A DNA stretch of 64,000 nucleotides from Dehalobacterium formicoaceticum. GTDB taxonomy: Bacteria > Bacillota > Dehalobacteriia > Dehalobacteriales > Dehalobacteriaceae. The notes under the pieces are model-generated. The model searched no databases and was not told where the DNA came from. It saw nothing but the letters and a program-made list of their open reading frames with translations. Below are positions 18,840 to 58,022 of this stretch, in pieces. The stretch is from contig NZ_CP022121.1 in NCBI RefSeq assembly GCF_002224645.1, positions 1,866,501-1,930,500 on the forward strand, read 5' to 3'. The first letter of the stretch is position 1. Each line of letters opens with the position of its first letter. A program made the translations under genes and the position numbers.

Positions 18840-18848
18840 ATTGACTTT

Positions 18849-18897
18849 ATTGGAGCTGATGGCCGGATTTGAACCGGCGACCTGCGCATTACGAGTG
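18849..18897 (-). other. attL: 49-bp copy of the tRNA-Thr 3' part
   Basis: Identical to 57945-57993. It carries the tRNA-Thr 3' part from the anticodon stem to CCA but lacks the 5' part, so it is not a working tRNA. It marks the left edge of the prophage, 180 bp from the integrase stop. Confidence 0.92.
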
Positions 18898-19077: not shown

Positions 19078-20367
19078 TCACCGGAAAAGACTTTCGAATT
19101 TTTCTACTGCATCGGCACCTTGCCCGGGCATTAAATGTCCATAAATATCTAAAGTGATTCTGATGGATGAGTGACCAAGGCGCTTAGATACGCGGTGGGC
19201 ATCGACACCGGCATGCAGCATCAGGCTGGCGTGGGTATGCCTCAGGCAGTGAAAGTTTAGCCTAGGTAATCCGATCTGCTCAAGATATTCCGGAAACCAT
19301 CCGGAAATAGTATCCGGGTGCATTGGCTTTCCGTCATCCTGGCAAAAGATAAGATCATCTTTACTATATTTTTCACCCCAAAACAATTTTGCAGCCGCCT
19401 GATCTTTCCTGTGCTCCTTTAGCACATTAACGACTTCATCTGATATATCAATTTTACGGCGGCTTTCTTTGGTTTTTGGTACTTTAAAAAATATGCCTTT
19501 TTCCGGGACATATGCCAGCGCACGAACGACCTTTAATGTTTTTTCTCTAAAGCTTACATCAGACCATTTTAGCCCAAGTAACTCCCCACGTCTTAACCCA
19601 GTGCGAATGGCAGTAAAAAGAATAGGGTAGTAGTCATTGTTTTTTACCCTCGTTTTTGGTATTATTTTACCGTGAGGATTAACCTTATTGTCAGGGGTGT
19701 TTTTAGCCGCTTCCAGCATGGCAGTTACCTCTGCCGATGACAAGACCTTAACAGTTTCATTGAGGTCACAATCATCATCGATGCTGTCTATGATCTCAGC
19801 GGGTGGCTTAGGGATCTCGACAGCATCAGCTGGATTAGTTAGTATTAACTGCTGTTTTAAGGCCGTGTCCAATGCTTTATGGATGACTCTATGATGATAA
19901 ACAATGGTGGCATGTGAGATGGGCTTATTTTCCTGATTTTCCTTTCTCGCTTCCTTTTTTATTTTCATTTTATTAGGCAACTGCCCTTCTTCAATTATCT
20001 CGCGGTAAAACCTTTGCAAATGAACAGGGCTTAATTTGGCTAAAGGGATAGCTCCCATCTTAGGGATAACCCTGCCAGTAATAATTTGTCTGTATCTTCG
20101 AAGTGTAGTTGGCGCGAGTCTTAACGAGCCATAATCATCAAGCCAGTTTCTCAGATATTCTCCTAATGTAATATTCTGTGTGTCAATATAAATACCATCT
20201 TCTACTTCTTGTTCTAGTTTTTTAAGTTCTTTTTCAGCAGCTCTGATCCCACCATTAAAAACGCGTTTAATTCTTTGCCTTTTTCCAGTACCGGGATTTT
20301 TTCCTGCTTCGACTGTGATTAACCATTCGTCCTTTTTGCCCCTATATGGGTTAATGGTTCCTGCCAT
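19078..20367 (-). CDS. int: Prophage tyrosine-type site-specific integrase
   Basis: Catalyses prophage integration at tRNA-Thr. It has an N-terminal arm-binding domain (residues about 1-65), a SAM-like core-binding domain (about 66-180) and a catalytic domain with Arg259 (TGLRRGELLGL), His373 and Arg376 (HCLRHTH), His399 (LGHSS) and the nucleophile Tyr409 (LDIYGHLM). At 429 residues it is slightly long; two lysine-rich insertions near 132-150 and 222-245 explain this. It points towards attL. A GGGGG site precedes the start. Confidence 0.95.
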   Translation of the reverse strand: MAGTINPYRGKKDEWLITVEAGKNPGTGKRQRIKRVFNGGIRAAEKELKKLEQEVEDGIYIDTQNITLGEYLRNWLDDYGSLRLAPTTLRRYRQIITGRVIPKMGAIPLAKLSPVHLQRFYREIIEEGQLPNKMKIKKEARKENQENKPISHATIVYHHRVIHKALDTALKQQLILTNPADAVEIPKPPAEIIDSIDDDCDLNETVKVLSSAEVTAMLEAAKNTPDNKVNPHGKIIPKTRVKNNDYYPILFTAIRTGLRRGELLGLKWSDVSFREKTLKVVRALAYVPEKGIFFKVPKTKESRRKIDISDEVVNVLKEHRKDQAAAKLFWGEKYSKDDLIFCQDDGKPMHPDTISGWFPEYLEQIGLPRLNFHCLRHTHASLMLHAGVDAHRVSKRLGHSSIRITLDIYGHLMPGQGADAVEKFESLFR

Positions 20368-42256: not shown

Positions 42257-42462
42257 ATGATGATGAGACCTCTTTTGAGCTGACCACGGAAACACTGATG
42301 CTCCGGGCAATTGAAAGAGGTCTAACTTTACGTGATTTTGAGGATCTAACCTTTGGAACGATAGCAGGCTTTATCATCACTTATAATAATGAACATCTTA
42401 AAGATAATGAACGCATCGATATAGTGCGAGATGCGGCCCAGGCAGACTTTGATAATTTTTGA
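42242..42462 (+). CDS. Frameshift extension of the tail chaperone (gpT part)
   Basis: A -1 shift on the A9 run leads into a frame reading SVDDDETSFELTTETLMLRA, then IERGLTLRDFEDLTFGTIAG and on to TGA 42460-42462. It has no start codon with a ribosome site of its own. Length, position and content fit the gpGT extension of siphophage tail chaperones. Confidence 0.85.
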
Positions 42463-42476
42463 TTGGAGGTGGAATC

Positions 42477-43727
42477 GTGGCGGGAACGATCAAGGGGATT
42501 ACTATTGAGATCGGCGGGAATACTCAGCCGTTAAATAAAGCATTAGAAGGCGTAAACAAAAAAACACGAGATCTCCAATCAGAACTCAGAAGCGTTGACA
42601 AATTGTTGAAGTTTGACCCGAAAAATGTTGAGCTTTCGGCACAAAAACAGGATTTATTAACTAAGTCAATTGACAACACCAAGACAAAGCTTGAAACATT
42701 AAAGGCCGCTGAAAAACAGGTTCAGGATCAGTTTAACCAAGGTAAAGTCAGCGAGGAGCATTACCGTCTGATCCAGCGGGAAGTTATCGCGACGGAACAA
42801 AACCTAAAAAAACTTGAGGGGCAATTAAAAAGCATTGGCCCTGTATCGAAAGGCAATCTGCAAGTAATCCAGGATAGTCTTGCGGAAGCTGCTAAAGAAA
42901 GTGATAAACTTTCAAATGAACTGGTAGACGTAAATCGCATGCTAAAGCTGGATAGTAAAAGCCCGGAACTGCTGGCGCAAAAACAAAAGGTACTAACGGA
43001 ATCTGTTAAAAATACTAAAGAGGAACTAAACCTGCTTAAGAAGGCCGAGCAGGAAGCCCAGGCCCAATTTGCCAAGGGCGATATGGGTGGGGACCAGTAC
43101 AGGGCAATCCAGCGGGAAGTTATCGGGACAACACAGAAATTAAAGGAGCTGGAGGGGCAGCTAAGCAACACAAGCAGTAAGTGGAAAGAAGCAGGTGCAA
43201 ATATCGGGAATGCCGGTGAAAAAATGAAGAACATCGGCAGTACGATGAGTACGAGAGTCACCGCCCCTATCGTTGCCGGTGCAGTAGCGGCGGTGGAAGG
43301 AACCCGGGAATTAAGAGAGGACTTGGCAAAACTTGAAACAAACGCTGCGCAGGCCGGGTCAGGGGTTGAGGAAACCCAAAAGGCATTAAGAAATCTTAAC
43401 ACAGTATCCGGGGAAACGGATAGTAATGTGGAAGCGCTGTCAAACCTCATGCAAGCAGGCTTCACTAACAACAATTTGCTTGAGGCTGTGGACGCATTAT
43501 CCGGTGCAGTGATTAAATTCCCAGACACCCTTAAAATAGAAGGATTAGCTGATGGGTTACAGGAAACCCTTGCCACAGGTGAGGCGATCGGTCCTTTTGG
43601 GGAATTGCTGGAACGCATGGGCGTTGATCTGGATACTTTTAACGAAGGGTTAACAGCCGCTAGTGCGAGCGGGGAAGAACAAAATTACATTTTACAGCAA
43701 TTGGCGAGTTTAGGCCTAGCTGATGTG
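42477..43727 (+). pseudogene. Tape measure protein, N-terminal part, interrupted by IS21-type element
   Basis: Sets tail length and holds other tail proteins. It begins AGTIKGITIEIGGNTQPLNK. Two repeated segments of about 120 residues follow, each with an LKFDPKNVEL/LKLDSKSPEL block and an IQREVI-x-T block. The frame is cut after LADV, where the insertion begins. Joined to 46406-47287 it would give about 710 residues. GTG 42477 follows GGAGGTGG. Confidence 0.9.
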
Positions 43728-43931
43728 TGTATTTGTCAACTTAAAATTAGGCCATATAGTCATTTAATTTTCGGCCACTAAGAAAAAAAAATTTAGTCGT
43801 TTCATAAGCATATTTAGTTTTCAAAGAGCATTGTTTCACGATGAATGCTAACGCGCTATCGCTTGTTACATCCTGTATAAATGTTTATCAAAAACATGAT
43901 AAACCTTTATACAGGGTTATTGTTTTTTTCT

Positions 43932-44711
43932 TCATGCCAGTTGCTGTTGTTGTAACCACTCCTTCGTTTCTTTCATGCGGTACGAGTTTCCATTCATGTT
44001 GACGATGTATGACTGATGCGTCAACCGGTCAATCATGGCCGCCGTCATCACGGGATCCTGAAAAATTTCACCCCATCGTTCGAAGGATAAGTTGGTTGTG
44101 ATGATTGTCGATTTGCGACCAGCCCTCAGCGACAAATGGGTAAACAATAATTCAGATCCTTCCTTATCAAAAGATATATAACCCATTTCATCGGCAATAA
44201 CCAAATCATATTTTTCAAAGCGGTTCTGGAAGGCTCGAAGAGTTTGCTCTGCTCGGCATTCTTTAATCCGGTTAATGAGGAGGGGAACAGTTGTAAACCA
44301 TACTTTATATCCCTCCAGGCAGGCCTTTAAGCCTAGCCCAATACTCACATGCGTCTTGCCTGTTCCCGGGTTCCCCGCCAGAATAATGTTGCGCCCCTCC
44401 TGAATAAACTCTAATGTTTTCAGCTGCTTTAACTTCTTTTGGGCATCATCTGGCAAATCCGCGATGACCAAATCTTCAAGGTACTTTTTATGTGTAAATT
44501 CAGCCAGACGAATGCGATTATGCCGCGAGGCTTCCCGACGAGCATCACATTCCTTCTCCAGTAACTGCGCCAGAAATGCTTCATAACTGGCATCCTGCTG
44601 CGTTGACTCCCGAACTTGCTCATCCAAATGCTTACGAATCATAGGGAGTCTCAGTTCTTTGCTATATTCCAATATCGCTTCCTTAAACGCCTTGCGCGGC
44701 GCGTTACTCAT
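43932..44711 (-). CDS. istB: IstB-like ATP-binding protein of the IS21 element
   Basis: AAA+ helper that controls target choice for IstA. It has Walker A GNPGTGKTHV, Walker B DLVIADEMGYI and the C-terminal DRLTHQSYIVNMNGNSYR. The 259-residue length is usual. Its ATG overlaps the istA stop as ATGA, the standard istAB coupling. The gene looks intact. Confidence 0.95.
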   Translation of the reverse strand: MSNAPRKAFKEAILEYSKELRLPMIRKHLDEQVRESTQQDASYEAFLAQLLEKECDARREASRHNRIRLAEFTHKKYLEDLVIADLPDDAQKKLKQLKTLEFIQEGRNIILAGNPGTGKTHVSIGLGLKACLEGYKVWFTTVPLLINRIKECRAEQTLRAFQNRFEKYDLVIADEMGYISFDKEGSELLFTHLSLRAGRKSTIITTNLSFERWGEIFQDPVMTAAMIDRLTHQSYIVNMNGNSYRMKETKEWLQQQQLA

Positions 44712-46288
44712 GCAACGTCCTCCTTTGCTTTTGGTGTATGGGTATCAAACATGTCATCGTACATGCGAAGCTGCTGTGCTGACCGCTCTACAATCTCTTT
44801 TCCCGTTTTCGAGAGATTTGGTTGAACAACAGGCATCGCGTCACGATTCCTAGCACAAAGCACTTTAATTTTATCCGTAGTCACTTGAGCCGGATGAATT
44901 TTCTCCAGCTCCCGAATAGCTTGCTCGACTTCCGCAAATGGGACATCGTCTCGAATATATTGCAATAGCTGTATAAATTCCTTGTCTTGTTTGGTATAAT
45001 ATGTTTCGTATATTTCTTTTATCCTTTTAGGAGCCTGCTGCCATGCCGCACTACCGGCAAATGCACCAGGTTTTTTCCTTAGCGTATCCAAATAATGATT
45101 CAGATCAAGCCGCCACTCGTGGTTGCCGGTTAATCGCACATGCTCCGCTACCAAGGATTCCTGATGGAAGCATCGCACCCGGGTCGCATATGCTTTAATC
45201 ATGATCGATTCACCTACCAAATGATCCGGTACTGAGTAACGATTCTGATCAACGATGATGGTGGAATATTTGTTCACCCGTCCATAAATCACGCGAGCTG
45301 CATCAAATGGTGGAAGGGTGGGCAGCAATGCGGGGCGCTCTTCTTCCAATCGTTCCTCCGCCGTCTGGCCGTTGTACTCATCATGGGACTTACGATTACG
45401 CTTAGTGCACACATCCTGCAAATATTGATTTGCCTCCTCCAGGGATTCAAATTCGTCCCGAAAAGCGAAGGCTTTTCGGCGAACGACCTCGACGCTTCGC
45501 TCCACATGACCTTTTTCGTTGCCCTTGCGAATATTGCAAAACCGATACTGAAAACCATAGTAGAGCGACAATTGAAGCAATCCTTGCGTCGGCTCCTTCT
45601 CCGTTCCAATAAACCTTTTCACCGCGACTTTCATGTTATCGTACACCATGGTACGATACACTTGGCCGATATGCTGGAAAAACAGGGCGTGTGCTTCCTG
45701 AAAACACTCTGTTGTTTGTTTGGTGAACAGATAAGCAAAGCGATAGTTCCCGTAAGCCGTTGTGAATACGGCCATCTGAAAAACTTGAAATTTTCCATTA
45801 ATTTTTAGTTTAACCTCACCCCAATCAAATTCGCAAATGTCTCCAAGTTCATACAGAGCCTTAATAAACGCTTCCTTTGGTTTCCGTTCCAAGCTTCTAA
45901 TGGTTCGAAGAACGGTACTGTAACTTAGTTGAGTACCCTCGGCTTCCAGTGCTTCAAAGATATCAATGGCTTTTTTTTGCTGCTTGTGCCGCCCCTGATT
46001 TCGCTTAGTTTCATTCTCGTCAAGATAGAACTGGATCCTGTTCACAACCTCGTCAGTCATTTTTCTTTTGGGTCGAATGCCCACAGTATACTTGGGGGCA
46101 GAAGTGAGGGTGTCGACTAGTGCCTGGATATCTGCCGACCCGCTCGACAATAATTGCTGTCTCCCTTCCTCATATTGTCCAATGTACTTTCCTACGGTGT
46201 CCCGATTGATCCCTGTTATTTTCGCAATTTCCCGGCGCGATTTCCCTTCATGAATATGCATCATTAAAATTTGTTGCTTGATGTTCAT
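44708..46288 (-). CDS. istA: IstA transposase of the IS21 element
   Basis: DDE transposase. The N-terminal helix-turn-helix is GKSRREIAKITGINRDTVGK. The RNase-H-like core begins CEFDWGEVKLK (first Asp), continues YDNMKVAVKRF (second Asp) and has EKGHVERSVEVVR (Glu), so the catalytic triad seems complete. The C-terminal Mu-like beta-barrel part follows. The length is 526 residues from Met 46288 with GGGAGAG before it. It is likely active. Confidence 0.94.
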   Translation of the reverse strand: MNIKQQILMMHIHEGKSRREIAKITGINRDTVGKYIGQYEEGRQQLLSSGSADIQALVDTLTSAPKYTVGIRPKRKMTDEVVNRIQFYLDENETKRNQGRHKQQKKAIDIFEALEAEGTQLSYSTVLRTIRSLERKPKEAFIKALYELGDICEFDWGEVKLKINGKFQVFQMAVFTTAYGNYRFAYLFTKQTTECFQEAHALFFQHIGQVYRTMVYDNMKVAVKRFIGTEKEPTQGLLQLSLYYGFQYRFCNIRKGNEKGHVERSVEVVRRKAFAFRDEFESLEEANQYLQDVCTKRNRKSHDEYNGQTAEERLEEERPALLPTLPPFDAARVIYGRVNKYSTIIVDQNRYSVPDHLVGESIMIKAYATRVRCFHQESLVAEHVRLTGNHEWRLDLNHYLDTLRKKPGAFAGSAAWQQAPKRIKEIYETYYTKQDKEFIQLLQYIRDDVPFAEVEQAIRELEKIHPAQVTTDKIKVLCARNRDAMPVVQPNLSKTGKEIVERSAQQLRMYDDMFDTHTPKAKEDVA

Positions 46289-46399
46289 TGTGATCATCTC
46301 TCCCAGCCCCTACCTGTTGAATTTCCTCTCAAGTAGGTTAATCTATTGTGGCCGGTTTTTCAATGACTACGGTGGCCTACTATTAGATTACCATAGACA

Positions 46400-47287
46400 G
46401 ATGTGAATGCCGCTTATAATGAATTTAATAAAGAATTAGTTGATAGCGCTAATGCGCAATTTGACTTACAAATGGCCATTGCGGAGCTGGGAGAAACCCT
46501 TACGCCGGTTATAACTAAAATTACTGAGTTGACAGCGGGATTGTTGTCCTGGTTTAACGATTTATCTCCGGAAACTCAAAATTTTATTGGTATGATTGTA
46601 TTACTTGTTGCGGCAGTTGGACCTGCCTTAATGGTTTTTGGTCAGATCGCGATGGGGGTAAGTTCCCTGATTGGTATCTTTGGCGCGGGCGGTGCCGCGG
46701 CCGGCGTATTAAGCGCGGCCTTCGGACTATTGACGGGCCCGGTCGGTCTGGCAGTGGCAGCCATCGCTTTGCTGGTTGGAATAGGTGTTGCATTATATGA
46801 AAACTGGGATGAAATTAAGGAGGGTGCGGCGGCTCTTTGGGATGGCCTGAAAGGCATTTGGAGCGGCATCGTTGATACGGTAAAAGGAGCTATTGACAAG
46901 ATCCAGGGCTTTTTTAAATTTGAGTGGTCTTTGCCGAAAATAAAGCTGCCGCACTTTGATATACAAGGTAAGTTTAGTCTTAATCCGCCCAGCGTGCCGT
47001 CATTTGGTGTGAAATGGTATAAGGAAGGAGGGATATTTGATAAACCTTCGCTGATCGGAGTTGGTGAGTCTGGACAAGAGGCAGTGATCCCGATTGAAAA
47101 GCTGGATGGAATTATAGCAAGCGCACTAGAAAAAGTAATCGGGAGTATTGGGCAGCGGCAGGACGGCGGCAGTATTGCTCTTCAGGTGGGCACATTAATC
47201 GCTGACGATTACAGTCTTAAGCAGCTGGAAAGAAAATTAAAAGGCATGAGGATTGTGGAAGATGTGAGGGTGGGTGCTACGCGATGA
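46400..47287 (+). pseudogene. Tape measure protein, C-terminal part after the insertion
   Basis: Continues the interrupted gene: [20 protein letters not shown], a strongly hydrophobic stretch ([19 protein letters not shown]) typical of tape measures, and the C-terminal [20 protein letters not shown], then IPIEKL. GTG 46403 could act as a start but has no ribosome site. It overlaps the next gene by 4 bases. Confidence 0.9.
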
Positions 47288-52582: not shown

Positions 52583-52903
52583 TTGAAATCTTTAGGCAAA
52601 ATAAAACGCGGCGATACGTTTTCATTTACCGCCGAACTAAAAGACAACGTAACAGGTGATGTTTTAACAGGCATAGCGGATAAATTAAGATGCCAATGCC
52701 GCACTAATGGAACGCACAAGCTGATAGACGAAATGGTTATAGCAGAAATAACCCCCGGAACGTATCTATTCTCTGCTGGCCAGACCGATGATTGGGGGGC
52801 TGGTTTTAGATTGCTTTTAGACATAGAATATACCTATGACAATGTAGTTTCATCAAGCGAAACCTTCTTTGTAGATGTGGAGGCTGATATAACCCATGGC
52901 TGA
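52583..52903 (+). CDS. BppU-like baseplate upper protein N-terminal domain
   Basis: A 106-residue protein: LGKIKRGDTFSFTAELKDNV, then PGTYLFSAGQTDDWGAG. It resembles the Ig-like N-terminal part of siphophage baseplate proteins that hold receptor-binding proteins. The TTG start follows GAAGGAGG. It overlaps the next gene by 8 bases. Confidence 0.65.
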   Translation: MKSLGKIKRGDTFSFTAELKDNVTGDVLTGIADKLRCQCRTNGTHKLIDEMVIAEITPGTYLFSAGQTDDWGAGFRLLLDIEYTYDNVVSSSETFFVDVEADITHG

Positions 52904-53357
52904 TATACTGCTTACGATAAATGCATCTGCAATGCCCATGAACATAGGTGATATACGCATAGGTTTGCCCGGTCTGCCTGGTCCAAAAGGGGATCCAGGG
53001 GAGCCGGGCCCACCAGGAGATCCCGGAGATAAAGGGGACAAAGGTGATCCTGGTGATACAGGGGCTGTCGGGAAGTCTATTGAGTTTTTATGGAATGGCA
53101 CCCAGCTGGGCATAAGAGTTGTGGGAACTGCCGAATATACCTTTGTTGATTTAAAGGGGGCTCCGGGGGAGCTTGGCGCAAAAGGTGATAAAGGAGATCC
53201 CGGAGCGCAGGGTGTTCCTGGTATCGACGGCGTTAATGGTACTAACGGCTATACTCCTGTACGCGGGACTGATTACTGGACTTCTGCAGATGTAGCTGGT
53301 ATGGAATCTTATATCAATAACTATATCGATGTAGTTATTTTAGGAGGTACTTCTTAA
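52896..53357 (+). CDS. Collagen-like tail fibre protein
   Basis: A 153-residue protein with two collagen-like Gly-X-Y tracts: residues about 25-53 (GLPGLPGPKGDPGEPGPPGD and on) and about 90-115 (GAPGELGAKGDKGDPGAQGV). Between them lies a beta segment (KSIEFLWNGTQLGIRV). The C terminus is helical. It is likely a trimeric fibre shaft. Confidence 0.8.
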   Translation: MADILLTINASAMPMNIGDIRIGLPGLPGPKGDPGEPGPPGDPGDKGDKGDPGDTGAVGKSIEFLWNGTQLGIRVVGTAEYTFVDLKGAPGELGAKGDKGDPGAQGVPGIDGVNGTNGYTPVRGTDYWTSADVAGMESYINNYIDVVILGGTS

Positions 53358-55222
53358 TGGCATATGAAACTGTAGCGGATTTATTTAAAGGCATTGGTGA
53401 TGCAATTCGCCAAAAAGATGGTACATCTGCCTTAATTAATCATCAGGATATGCCTGGCAGGATTGCGGCGATTTCTGGGGGAGGCACTAACCAAAGCGAA
53501 ATCCTTACTATGCCTGTGCTTAATCTCAGCACTACCTACCATGGGATTAACGGTATCCTCCTACGGTGGACACCACCTGAAAATGCGGGGCAACGAATCG
53601 CTTTTAAGAAAAATGGCTTACCGTCTCTTCCTATTACTGAAGATTTTATTGATGTTTCGTCAACAACAAAAGAGTATATTCTTACTGACCTTGAGGTCGA
53701 TACGCCATATGGGTTGTGGGTACTTACAAAAAACGAAAACGGCATTTTCCAAACAACTCAACCCCGAAATAATTACAAAATGTTTAAAACTAACGGCTTT
53801 TTAGATACGTCTGTCTTAGAAATCCCTCCCCCTTCCGGTTTGAATGCAGCTACAACGCTATATGCTTTTCGTGCCAGGAATGGAGATACATATATCAGCG
53901 GTAATAATAGTTCTGCGCTGGGAATTTACAAACTCAACATTGCTACTAATATCTGGGACATGGTTCATAGCTCAAGCAATAGTTGGCAATATTGGTTTGA
54001 GAGCTCATCAGGAGAAATATTTGTTTCATCTGTTTCTGGTACAGGGATTTTAAAATGGAATGGTGCAGCTTTTGTTAATGTTTATAACACAAGCTATAGT
54101 TGGCAATATTGGTTTGAGAGCTCATCAGGAGAAATATTTGTTAGTTCATCTGTTTCTGGTACAGGGATTTTAAAATGGAATGGTGCAGCTTTTGTTAATG
54201 TTTATAACACAAGCTATAGTTGGCAATATTGGTTTGAGAGCTCATCAGGAGAAATATTTGTTTCATCTTTTTATGGTACAGGGATTTTAAAATGGAATGG
54301 TGCAGCTTTTGTTAATGTTTATAACACAAGCTATAGTTGGCGATATTGGTTTGAGAGCTCATCAGGAGAAATATTTGTTTCATCTGTTTCTGGTACAGGG
54401 ATTTTAAAATGGAATGGTGCAGCTTTTGTTAATGTTTATAACACAAGCTATAGTTGGCAATATTGGTTTGAGAGCTCATCAGGAGAAATATTTGTTTCAT
54501 CTGTTTCTGGTACAGGGATTTTAAAATGGAATGGTGCAGCTTTTGTTAGCATTTATAGCTCAAGCAATAGTTGGCGATATTGGTTTGAGAGCTCATCAGG
54601 AGAAATATTTGTTAGTTCATCTGTTTCTGGTACAGGGATTTTAAAATGGAATGGTGCAGCTTTTGTTAATGTTTATAACACAAGCTATAGTTGGCAATAT
54701 TGGTTTGAGAGCTCATCAGGAGAAATATTTGTTTCATCTGTTTCTGGTACAGGGATTTTAAAATGGAATGGTGCAGCTTTTGTTAGCATTTATAGCTCAA
54801 GCAATAGTTGGCGATATTGGTTTGAGAGCTCATCAGGAGAAATATTTGTTAGTTCATCTGTTTCTGGTACAGGGATTTTAAAATGGAATGGTGCAGCTTT
54901 TGTTAATGTACTTGCAACCGGTAATACCTACTCATATAGGTACGAAAAATCCACGGAGATCATTTTTGTCAGCACATCAGCAACAACATACCCGCAGGTA
55001 GTCTACAATAAGGCAGCCGGAACAGCTATTGCCAGTAGCAGCCTACATGGTGGTTTGTTTTTTGGTGTCTTACCTCGATTTTTAAACGCTGCACATAAGA
55101 AACTGTATACCCTAACAGACAGTTTTGACTTATTGGGTGCGTATTCAGCGGTTGCAAACAACGATGTGAATTATGCGTATGCGATAAGCGCGGAAAATGA
55201 TTATGTTTTACTTAATTTTTAG
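53357..55222 (+). CDS. Tail fibre protein with eight long tandem repeats
   Basis: A 621-residue protein. Its N-terminal part (DLFKGIGDAIRQKDGTSALI) is typical of phage fibre proteins, followed by a fibronectin-III-like region (about residues 55-150). Residues of about 209-523 hold eight 39-40-residue repeats (SWQYWFESSSGEIFVSS...GTGILKWNGAAFVNVY), probably beta-propeller blades. It ends in a unique C-terminal part. The start overlaps the collagen gene by one base. It is likely the adhesin that meets the cell surface. Confidence 0.75.
   Translation: MAYETVADLFKGIGDAIRQKDGTSALINHQDMPGRIAAISGGGTNQSEILTMPVLNLSTTYHGINGILLRWTPPENAGQRIAFKKNGLPSLPITEDFIDVSSTTKEYILTDLEVDTPYGLWVLTKNENGIFQTTQPRNNYKMFKTNGFLDTSVLEIPPPSGLNAATTLYAFRARNGDTYISGNNSSALGIYKLNIATNIWDMVHSSSNSWQYWFESSSGEIFVSSVSGTGILKWNGAAFVNVYNTSYSWQYWFESSSGEIFVSSSVSGTGILKWNGAAFVNVYNTSYSWQYWFESSSGEIFVSSFYGTGILKWNGAAFVNVYNTSYSWRYWFESSSGEIFVSSVSGTGILKWNGAAFVNVYNTSYSWQYWFESSSGEIFVSSVSGTGILKWNGAAFVSIYSSSNSWRYWFESSSGEIFVSSSVSGTGILKWNGAAFVNVYNTSYSWQYWFESSSGEIFVSSVSGTGILKWNGAAFVSIYSSSNSWRYWFESSSGEIFVSSSVSGTGILKWNGAAFVNVLATGNTYSYRYEKSTEIIFVSTSATTYPQVVYNKAAGTAIASSSLHGGLFFGVLPRFLNAAHKKLYTLTDSFDLLGAYSAVANNDVNYAYAISAENDYVLLNF
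53981..54925 (+). repeat. Eight tandem 117/120-bp repeats in the fibre gene
   Basis: Unit starts are near 53981, 54098, 54218, 54335, 54452, 54569, 54689 and 54806. Units are almost identical, and differences fall at a few fixed spots: Gln/Arg after SW, an extra Ser codon, VSG or FYG, and NVYNTSY or SIYSSSN. Confidence 0.93.
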
Positions 55223-55376: not shown

Positions 55377-55766
55377 ATGGATTTAAAGCTGGATACAGTG
55401 GCATCAGGTTTTGCGATATTCGCTACATTTATTTTTGGGGGGTGGGACAAATTGCTCTCTGCTTTAGTCGTACTAGTTGTACTGGATTACTTGACCGGAA
55501 TATTCGCGGCTGGAATCGAGGGCAAATTAAACTCTACAACCGGTTTAAAGGGTATCGCCAAAAAAGTATTTATATTGATGGTGGTTGCTCTGGCGGTGCA
55601 GATCGATTGTGTTAACGCCGGAGATGGTACTATTAGGGCTTTGGTGATTTACTTTTTCTTGGCAAATGAGGGGCTGAGTATTATGGAAAATGCAGGCCGG
55701 GCAGGATTGCCGATGCCGAATGGACTGATAAAGGCATTAGAGGTACTAAAAGATAGGAAGGGGTAA
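55377..55766 (+). CDS. Phage holin (toxin secretion/phage lysis family)
   Basis: A 129-residue membrane protein. It has several hydrophobic helices with the marker LLSALVVLVVLDYLTGIFAA, then LKGIAKKVFILMVVALAVQI and a C-terminal IMENAGRAGLPMPNGLIKAL, typical of the phi29/TIGR01593-type holin family. It lies 3 bp before the lysin. TAAGGAGG precedes the ATG. Confidence 0.92.
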   Translation: MDLKLDTVASGFAIFATFIFGGWDKLLSALVVLVVLDYLTGIFAAGIEGKLNSTTGLKGIAKKVFILMVVALAVQIDCVNAGDGTIRALVIYFFLANEGLSIMENAGRAGLPMPNGLIKALEVLKDRKG

Positions 55767-55769
55767 AAG

Positions 55770-57275
55770 GTGGATAAGGTGGATAAGGTATTAGATCAGC
55801 TAAACATACCGCCACAGTGGAGCAATACTACAGGTAAGGGGGTTAGATACGCTGTACTGGATTACGCCCCAGGTAATGTAATAGTCACCCCGGTCAACTC
55901 TTTTAGTGCTATTCACTATCATTCCTATTCTTGTCAGTATATCATTCAAAAAATTGCACCTAATGCCAAAGGCTTTGGGATTAATGTATTGAGTAAAGCG
56001 TCAGAAGGCAGCTGGCAGATGCAAGACGCGCTTAGATGGTGCTTGGAGAACGACATAGCTGTAATTAATATGTCATTAAGTGGTATTAGAACGCATGAGA
56101 GAATAGCATTAATCAAGAAACTGATTAATAAAGGTACAGTCATTTGCGCCGCTGCCGGCAATGATGGCAAAGAGAAACTTAATTTTCCTGCCGACCAGCC
56201 CGGGGTAATATCCGTTGGGGCATATGTAGCAAGCACTGGGGAATGGTGGGGAGTGTCGAATTCGGGACCTGAGATTGAAATTATTGCTCCTACATATGTA
56301 GATATACCCCACTGGAATAAAGAAAAGCCAGCTATAAATTTTAACGGAACAAGCTGCGCCACTCCTGCCATATCGGGGGTGGCTTGTTTATGGAAAGAAA
56401 TATTCCAGACAGGCAACGCTTATGACTTCAAAGACTTTCTAAAAACATGGGCAGAGGATTATGGAGATCCGGGATTTGATAATAAAACTGGTTATGGCAA
56501 ATTTAGATTCCCGGGACCAGATCAATGGATTACAGAGGAGGAGAGGATGAAGGATATGGCTAAAAGAATATTTATTGACCCAGGCCATGGCGGAAGTGAT
56601 CCCGGGGCGGTCGGCAGAATCAGAGAAGCTGATTACGCCCTGCAATATGCACTGGCATTGGGCGAGGAACTGACCAAACAAGGGTTCGTGGTGGACTATT
56701 CCCGGACTACGGATCTATCCGTGCCCCTGAGTATTCGCGGTCCAGCGGCAAATCGCGCAAGGGCGGATTATTTTATTTCTACCCATTTTAATGCCGGAGG
56801 AGGTATTGGTATCGAGACTTTTGCCCTTGCGCCGGGGGGACAAGCAGAGAAACTGGCCAACGCGGTGCAGGATTCCCTTGTGATCCACACCGAGATGAAA
56901 AATCGCGGAGTCAAGTTTGCTAATTTCCAGGTGCTCAGGGAAACGAGTATGCCAGCTATATTGATCGAGGGCGGATTTGTAGATAGCACAGATGCCGATC
57001 AGATCAAGACGGAAACTAATAAACAAAACTTTGTTCGGGGTGTATCTAAAGGCCTGTTTGCCTTTTTGGGAGTGCAGAGGAAAGAGGAGGTAAATCACAT
57101 GGGTAAATTTAAAGATGTTGATGATAAGAAGTGGTATGCTGCCAGCGTAGATAAGGCTGCAGAGCTAGGGCTCATGAACGGAACTTCGGCCGACAAATTT
57201 GAGCCTGAAAAATCACTTACAAGAGCAGAACTCGCCGCTGTTGCTGTTAGAATATACGATAAGCTCAATAAATAA
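55770..57275 (+). CDS. Trimodular lysin: subtilisin-type protease + amidase_3 + SLH domain
   Basis: A 501-residue protein. Residues about 20-250 form an S8 subtilase with Asp31 (YAVLDYAPG), His49 (IHYHSYS), Asn131 (AAAGNDG) and Ser195 (GTSCATPA), so the catalytic set looks whole. Residues about 263-435 form an N-acetylmuramoyl-L-alanine amidase (FIDPGHGGSDPGA, STHFNAGG, LIEGGF). The last 58 hold one SLH domain (FKDVDDKKWYAASVDKAAEL). It follows the holin, so it is the endolysin. Strong ribosome sites precede in-frame ATGs at both joints (56547/56556 and 57099). A protease in an endolysin is unusual. Confidence 0.88.
   Translation: MDKVDKVLDQLNIPPQWSNTTGKGVRYAVLDYAPGNVIVTPVNSFSAIHYHSYSCQYIIQKIAPNAKGFGINVLSKASEGSWQMQDALRWCLENDIAVINMSLSGIRTHERIALIKKLINKGTVICAAAGNDGKEKLNFPADQPGVISVGAYVASTGEWWGVSNSGPEIEIIAPTYVDIPHWNKEKPAINFNGTSCATPAISGVACLWKEIFQTGNAYDFKDFLKTWAEDYGDPGFDNKTGYGKFRFPGPDQWITEEERMKDMAKRIFIDPGHGGSDPGAVGRIREADYALQYALALGEELTKQGFVVDYSRTTDLSVPLSIRGPAANRARADYFISTHFNAGGGIGIETFALAPGGQAEKLANAVQDSLVIHTEMKNRGVKFANFQVLRETSMPAILIEGGFVDSTDADQIKTETNKQNFVRGVSKGLFAFLGVQRKEEVNHMGKFKDVDDKKWYAASVDKAAELGLMNGTSADKFEPEKSLTRAELAAVAVRIYDKLNK
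56534..56558 (+). promoter_or_regulatory. Internal ribosome site and start for amidase+SLH product
   Basis: GAGGAGGAGAGG (56535-56546) lies just before in-frame ATG 56547 and 10 bases before ATG 56556, exactly where the amidase domain begins (MAKRIFIDPGHGG). It could yield an amidase-SLH protein alone. Confidence 0.5.
57084..57101 (+). promoter_or_regulatory. Internal ribosome site and start for the SLH domain alone
   Basis: GAGGAGGT (57084-57091) stands 7 bases before in-frame ATG 57099, which opens the SLH module (MGKFKDVDDKKWY). It could yield a free 58-residue wall-binding unit, as described for some other endolysins. Confidence 0.5.
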
Positions 57276-57834
57276 GGAGGTGATCCTTATCTACGGCAGG
57301 CTAACCCCCTGCTATTAATATAAGAAGGAAGACTTAGAATACACCCCAAGAGTATCAGGAAACTAAAAGATAAAATCCGAGAAATCACCGGACGGAGTAA
57401 CGGTATGGGGGTGGAGACGAGAAAAACCAGACTGAACCAAGTGGTTAGAGGCTGGATGAACTACTTCAAATTGGCAGATGCAAAGAAACTAATACAAGGA
57501 TTGGATGAATGGATTAGAAGTCGCATACGGATGGTGACATGGAAACGATGGAAGAAAATCAGCACACGATTTGGAAATCTCAAAAAGCTAGGAGCTAAAA
57601 ATGAACAAGCATGGATGTGGGCAAACACAAGAAAAGGCTATTGGCGTACTGCCCATAGCCCAATTTTGTCACGAACATTATCCAACGAGAGATTCAAACG
57701 TGCCGGTTACATTAGCTTGATGGAATGTTACTCTGCAAATTAACGTGTAAACTGTGGAAGCGCCGTATACCGAACGGTACGTACGGTGCTGTGGGAGGTC
57801 GGCTGACCAAATAATGGTCAGCCTCCTACCCGAT
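57276..57834 (+). mobile_element. 5'-truncated group II intron with domains V and VI
   Basis: Contains the C-terminal maturase fragment and then a domain V hairpin (about 57759-57790, CGTATAC...GTACGTACGG) and a domain VI stem (GGCTGACC-AAATAAT-GGTCAGCC, 57801-57823), closing at CCTACCCGAT (57825-57834), a usual intron 3' end. Domains I-IV and the reverse transcriptase are missing, so it cannot splice or move alone. Its left edge is uncertain, near the lysin stop. Confidence 0.8.
57327..57743 (+). pseudogene. Group II intron maturase, C-terminal fragment
   Basis: After TAA at about 57324 the frame reads GRLRIHPKSIRKLKDKIREI, then GVETRKTRLNQVVRGWMNYF and IRSRIRMVTWKRWKKI, the maturase-specific X/DNA-binding part. 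It ends RAGYISLMECYSAN. The reverse transcriptase domain is absent. ATG 57405 has no ribosome site, so this is a relic. Confidence 0.85.
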
Positions 57835-57931: not shown

Positions 57932-57944
57932 AACCATTGATACT

Positions 57945-57993
57945 ATTGGAGCTGATGGCCGGATTTGAACCGGCGACCTGCGCATTACGAGTG
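57945..57993 (-). other. attR: 49-bp core within the tRNA-Thr gene
   Basis: Identical to attL (18849-18897). It lies in the 3' two-thirds of the intact tRNA-Thr, so integration leaves the tRNA working. It marks the right edge of the prophage. Confidence 0.92.
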
Positions 57994-58022
57994 CGCTGCT
58001 CTACCAACTGAGCCACATCAGC
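57947..58022 (-). tRNA. tRNA-Thr (anticodon CGT)
   Basis: Minus strand, 76 nt with encoded CCA. Acceptor stem GCTGATG/CATCAGC, D arm GCTC...GAGC, anticodon stem GCGCA/TGCGC with loop CTCGTAA (anticodon CGT), T arm GCCGG-TTCAAAT-CCGGC. It is the prophage integration target. Confidence 0.95.

Follow-up and report, generated by a model that had tools for sequence, protein, structure and literature searches.

Domain Organization of the Endolysin Gene

In the present study, we analyzed a stretch of 64,000 nucleotides from Dehalobacterium formicoaceticum (hereafter, the window) and characterized an endolysin gene located at 55770-57275 on the plus strand. The gene starts with GTG, carries a purine-rich ribosome site just upstream, and encodes a protein of 501 amino acids. 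A first-pass annotation had proposed that this protein joins a subtilisin-like protease to an amidase and an SLH anchor. The Pfam results revealed all three domains, each above its curated cut-off. The Peptidase_S8 (subtilisin) domain occupied residues 1-250 (55770-56519), as delimited by Pfam, alignments, an AlphaFold model, and a fold match; the Pfam match itself covered residues 59-243 (E 1e-25, 91 bits against a cut-off of 21.8). The Amidase_3 domain covered residues 267-429 (56568-57056; E 2e-39, 136 bits against 27), with further support from motif positions and from sequence matches in the PDB, in which the closest solved amidases were 4rn7 and CwlV (1jwq). A short linker near residues 251-266 joined the protease to the amidase. 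In PHROGs, the first part of the protein was labeled as a protease and the middle part as an endolysin.

The SLH domain was found at residues 446-489 (57105-57236; E 2e-11, 44 bits against 20.8) and matched the SLH domain of the S-layer protein Sap (6bt4) in the PDB. Its motifs were W455, GLMNG at 467-471, and TRAE at 484-487. The proposed anchor was thus present, although it consisted of exactly one SLH repeat and not three. No second full-length match to the lysin was found elsewhere in the D. formicoaceticum genome, and no place in the phage and plasmid records covered 80% of the protein.

Catalytic Residues and Predicted Fold of the Protease Domain

The Pfam match to Peptidase_S8 began past the catalytic Asp; therefore, the triad was checked by alignment with ordinary phage and Bacillus subtilases. 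In this alignment, D31 (55860-55862) and H51 (55920-55922) corresponded to the catalytic Asp and His, N131 (56160-56162) to the oxyanion Asn, and S195 (56352-56354) to the catalytic Ser. The zinc-binding and catalytic residues of the amidase were assigned by motif as H273, E286, H339, and E400. The first-pass annotation had reported that the catalytic residues of both enzymes were visible, and these assignments agreed with it.

To obtain a structural view, residues 1-251 were modeled by AlphaFold2 with 21 aligned rows as input. The model showed a predicted local distance difference test score (pLDDT) of 88.3 and a predicted template modeling score (pTM) of 0.89, and placed D31 at a strand end, H51 at a helix start, and S195 at the start of a long helix. 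Superposition on subtilisins by VIA-align yielded a Z of 30.1, with 2.3-2.4 Å over 230-234 residues, and the Foldseek matches to subtilisins had E values of about 1e-18. These results indicated a confident subtilisin fold with no visible sign of inactivity; judged from the alignment and the model, the catalytic site of the protease looks intact.

The best Foldseek match was 1suc, a calcium-independent designed BPN'. Like subtilisin BPN' and its relatives in family S8, the lysin has the fold, the Asp, His, and Ser residues, and the oxyanion Asn. It differs from BPN' in having no evident signal peptide or prodomain, in lacking the loop after the His helix (as in 1suc), and in being joined to a wall hydrolase and an anchor. 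This loop is short in the lysin protease and in its phage relatives. BPN' with that loop deleted can fold without its prodomain, and the short loop would fit a protein in which no prodomain is visible.

The motif around the His residue is unusual, reading HSYSCQY in place of HGTHVAG, and one phage relative has Gly replacing the Asp. Both observations would suit an S8 domain with little or no catalytic activity that acts as a spacer or a binding module. In contrast, the His, Ser, and oxyanion Asn were invariant in 21/21 aligned rows, and the acidic residue was Asp or Glu in 21/21, at about 25% identity. Together with a subtilisin-like model in which the residues are in place, this conservation makes a dead domain improbable.

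Prophage and Lysis Context

The lysin gene lies in a 39-kb prophage whose ends are marked by a perfect 50-bp direct repeat. The outer bounds, including both att repeats, are 18848-57993. The attL copy is located at 18848-18897, and the attR copy, at 57944-57993, falls in the integration target, a tRNA-Thr(cgt) gene at 57947-58022 on the minus strand. An integrase adjoins attL (19078-20367, minus strand; PHROG 1, 255 bits). Between the repeats, we found siphovirus-type genes matching PHROGs for integrase, terminase, portal, head protease, capsid, and tape measure. A holin gene of the Phage_holin_4_1 family (55377-55766, plus strand; Pfam E 5e-40) ends 3 bases before the lysin start. No signal peptide or anchor was evident at the N-terminus of the lysin, where the first 45 residues, assessed without a dedicated signal-peptide program, contained no hydrophobic stretch (best 15-residue hydrophobicity mean 1.07).

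The att-bounded prophage, the holin next door, and the lack of an evident signal peptide indicated that this is a phage lysis gene, as the first-pass annotation had claimed. The protein is almost certainly a holin-dependent endolysin, for which the sequence predicts a role in the lysis of host cells. A host wall enzyme unrelated to lysis was also considered, given that host surface proteins often contain SLH domains and host wall enzymes often contain Amidase_3. That explanation was rejected on location, directly behind a holin inside the prophage. The N-terminus and the absence of a second full-length copy from the genome also speak against it, and we regard it as having next to no probability.

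Several other features were observed in the prophage. A two-gene insertion that is IstA/IstB-like by eye (43932-46297, minus strand) splits the tape-measure gene, and the two halves (42459-43781 and 46403-47287) each matched tape-measure PHROGs; therefore, the prophage is probably defective. The tail region encodes a collagen-like protein of Gly-X-Y repeats (52896-53357), followed by a protein at 53357-55222 that contains near-identical repeats in tandem, each about 40 residues long (WQYWFESSSGEIFVSS...), for which no PHROG match was found. A C-terminal fragment of a group II intron maturase is present at 57405-57743, between the lysin and attR.

Related Proteases in the Lysis Regions of Other Phages

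Scans of viral and genome contigs in which a single protein was the query, either the whole lysin or its amidase-SLH half, found no relatives, as each single sequence provided few peptide patterns. With alignment queries, starting from weak matches, we collected about 20 related compact phage subtilases. These compact lysis-region subtilases were defined by an N-terminal WHxxG[YF]TGKG motif, a short loop after the His helix, an anchor, and a lysin alongside. Most of them carried their own wall anchor and had a holin or peptidoglycan hydrolase alongside; a C-terminal SLH or Cu_amine_oxidN1 domain was found in the set.

The same kind of fusion exists in other phages. Besides the window lysin, there were five protease-hydrolase fusions, four with Amidase_2 and one with glucosaminidase plus SLH. 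Locus L218 (also L075/L095), from a Thermoanaerobacterales metagenome-assembled genome (MAG), encodes S8, Amidase_2, and Cu_amine_oxidN1 in one protein, with prophage tail genes upstream and a holin downstream. L223 combines S8 and Amidase_2 behind a holin_4_1 gene and has a partial CWB2 anchor below the cut-off. In L222, from an Anaerovorax MAG, S8 is fused to Amidase_2, and in L233, which has a holin upstream, it is fused to a weak Amidase_2 below the cut-off for that family. L244 encodes S8, Glucosaminidase, and SLH, followed by holin_4_1, and thus repeats the plan of the window lysin with a different class of wall hydrolase. On visual inspection, L222 and L233 seemed to have SLH-like tails, but these were not confirmed and are not claimed.

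In other phages, the protease is a separate gene. A Tepidibacter phage-plasmid carries a separate S8-SLH gene (L053, 3971-4972) within a lysis cassette, beside genes annotated as XhlA, holin, and M15. Separate S8 genes also stand beside M23 (L061/L214, L063), beside Amidase_2 (L216, L225, L226, L245), beside M15 and a holin (L228), and, in a further group, beside M23 (L230, L232, L234). In L101, an ordinary S8 protease with a Cu_amine_oxidN1 anchor directly precedes an Amidase_3 bearing the same anchor. Pfam did not confirm XhlA in L225 or L226, where visual inspection had suggested it, and it is not claimed. Two further S8 genes were observed: an orphan compact S8 and Cu_amine_oxidN1 gene among chromosomal genes with no phage gene nearby (L098, 2539-3450), and an S8 protease in a virus assigned to the archaeal Methanofastidiosa (L057, 3500-4711).

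The association with lysis genes was compared with that of ordinary phage subtilases. A hydrolase was encoded either no more than 2.5 kb away or by the same gene at 14 of 19 family loci and at 5 of 80 ordinary loci (Fisher p 3e-9). This comparison favors the family, because some of the seeds for the hydrolase profiles came from family loci, and its loci are not independent of one another. Among the controls, three of the four proteases with an anchor were near an amidase, compared with 2/76 of the others, a small sample. On the tree, the fused forms needed six state changes (gains or losses), and well-supported branches forced at least five; therefore, fusion or splitting happened repeatedly.

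In 12 rows (L225, L226, L227, L228, L229, L230, L232, L233, L222, L218, L244, and L245), the triad Asp was replaced by Glu in an ungapped register. These Glu-type subtilases cluster on the tree, and the predicted model of one of them (L233) keeps the subtilisin fold.

The separate proteases carry their own wall anchor, which argues that the protease works at the wall. This point also bears on whether the protease is instead a self-processing or timing device that cuts the linker near residues 251-266, freeing the amidase-SLH part, or trims another phage protein. The shortness of that linker would suit such a device, and wall hydrolases are activated by proteolysis elsewhere, for example, SleC by Csp proteases. 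However, in many phages the protease has a gene to itself and bears its own wall anchor, which self-cutting would not need, and the partner hydrolases belong to unrelated classes (Amidase_2, Amidase_3, Glucosaminidase, M23, and M15). For these two reasons, we consider self-processing unlikely.

Comparison with Known Lysis Systems

The first-pass annotation knew of no well-described lysin with this architecture, which held for one part of the protein only. An amidase-SLH endolysin is already known: LysBT1, from the Brevibacillus thermoruber prophage PBT1, was published in 2025 (PMC12285257). Both proteins combine an amidase with SLH, and the host of LysBT1 also has an S-layer protein (PMC12285257). 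LysBT1 lacks a protease domain, and the fold of its amidase resembles those of XlyA, PlyL, and T7 lysozyme (Amidase_2 type), whereas the window lysin contains Amidase_3. With its extra N-terminal protease and other amidase family, the window lysin falls outside the LysBT1-type plan, which as a whole is an amidase and a C-terminal SLH. The Moorella phage MTATph1 endolysin (WPA89524.1) consists of Amidase_3 and SLH and is 37% identical to residues 263-501 of the window lysin; it has no protease on the same protein, and that phage encodes an S8 protease in another gene, about 38 kb distant.

The part that appears to be new is the protease module. In the literature searched, a scope that excluded subscription papers, we came across no description of a lysin with a protease, so that absence is no proof. 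A 2025 survey of viral lytic proteins makes no mention of subtilase or SLH (PMC12596118).

An added lysis enzyme for a host-specific layer outside the peptidoglycan has a counterpart in the mycobacteriophage LysA/LysB system. LysB is a separate esterase that acts on the lipid layer, whereas the extra enzyme of the window lysin is a protease and is fused.

Host Surface and Proposed Mechanism

The host strain, D. formicoaceticum DMC, is a Gram-positive anaerobe (PMC5597755). The first-pass annotation had made its reading conditional on a protein S-layer on the host wall, and this premise was supported: the top 10% of the D. formicoaceticum proteome includes S-layer proteins (PMC10327494). In the genome, we found csaB (302 bits) and 34 SLH matches. 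Omp85 was absent from the genome, which indicated a single-membrane cell; a diderm (Negativicutes-like) host was rejected on the same ground. SLH proteins were also encoded in 7/7 of the other host genomes checked.

Taken as a whole, the model that we somewhat favor is that the gene encodes the holin-dependent endolysin of the prophage with an added protein-cutting module that opens the S-layer coat. Late in the lytic cycle, the lysin would be synthesized without an export signal in the cytoplasm, and the upstream holin would open the membrane. The SLH domain would then dock, perhaps as a trimer like LysBT1, on the pyruvylated secondary wall polymer to which the S-layer proteins of the host are also attached. 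Amidase_3 would cut the peptidoglycan, while the subtilisin domain, tethered to the same sites by the anchor, would cut S-layer and other SLH-anchored surface proteins. The protein coat would give way, and the progeny would escape caging. Late expression, enzyme activity, the SLH ligand, and above all the protein substrate are inferred steps of this model. S-layer proteins are our best guess for the substrate because of the anchor type, the S-layer proteins of the host, and the separate wall-anchored proteases.

The protease might instead mainly free the progeny, by trimming S-layer or surface proteins, including possible receptors, from the debris, with lysis itself independent of it. The same domain and context evidence would serve this explanation, and S-layer surface proteins can act as phage receptors, as C. 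difficile SlpA does. Nevertheless, this phage has no known receptor, and the adjacency of holin and hydrolase fits lysis at least equally well. We consider this explanation rather unlikely, slightly less so than self-processing.

Several observations weigh against S-layer opening by the endolysin. The activity and substrate of the protease are predictions, and the model leaves unexplained how an apparently prodomain-free protease would do no damage to the phage within the cell. Because SLH proteins are common in the phylum, their presence in every host supports S-layer targeting weakly. With its tape-measure gene interrupted, this prophage copy may no longer make phage. The window S8 domain shares the short loop of the compact set; however, its motif is QWSNT-TGKG, not WHxxG[YF]TGKG, and it forms a long branch, 21-28% identical to that set. 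It is also weakly nearer to ordinary subtilases on the tree (support 86/83). On account of the long branch and this placement, the domain may have been recruited independently and not belong to the compact set. Finally, about half of the relatives have Glu at the acidic triad position, and L053 has Gly there, with a His that aligns unsurely; therefore, activity is not certain across the set. Only the Asp is clearly lost in L053, and for this reason its protease may be inactive.

Implications for Phage Lysis

Lysis models name enzymes for the membrane, peptidoglycan, outer membrane, and mycolic layers; none was found for bacterial S-layers in the literature searched. The recurrence of the protease in the lysis genes of phages with S-layer-type hosts suggests that some phages bring a protease against the protein coat of the host. 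A broader proposal, which we hold to be slightly less than even in probability, is that phages of S-layered single-membrane bacteria have a dedicated lysis step, absent from current models, that is performed by a wall-anchored subtilisin. The gene for this enzyme would either neighbor those for the holin and endolysin or, as the outcome of several independent events, be fused to the endolysin gene, and one lineage would have a Ser-His-Glu triad in place of Ser-His-Asp. S-layers cover many bacteria, and a protease module that recurs across lysis regions would close the S-layer gap in lysis models. The fused forms would also offer existing enzymes with which to open S-layered cells, whose S-layer can impede externally applied endolysins.
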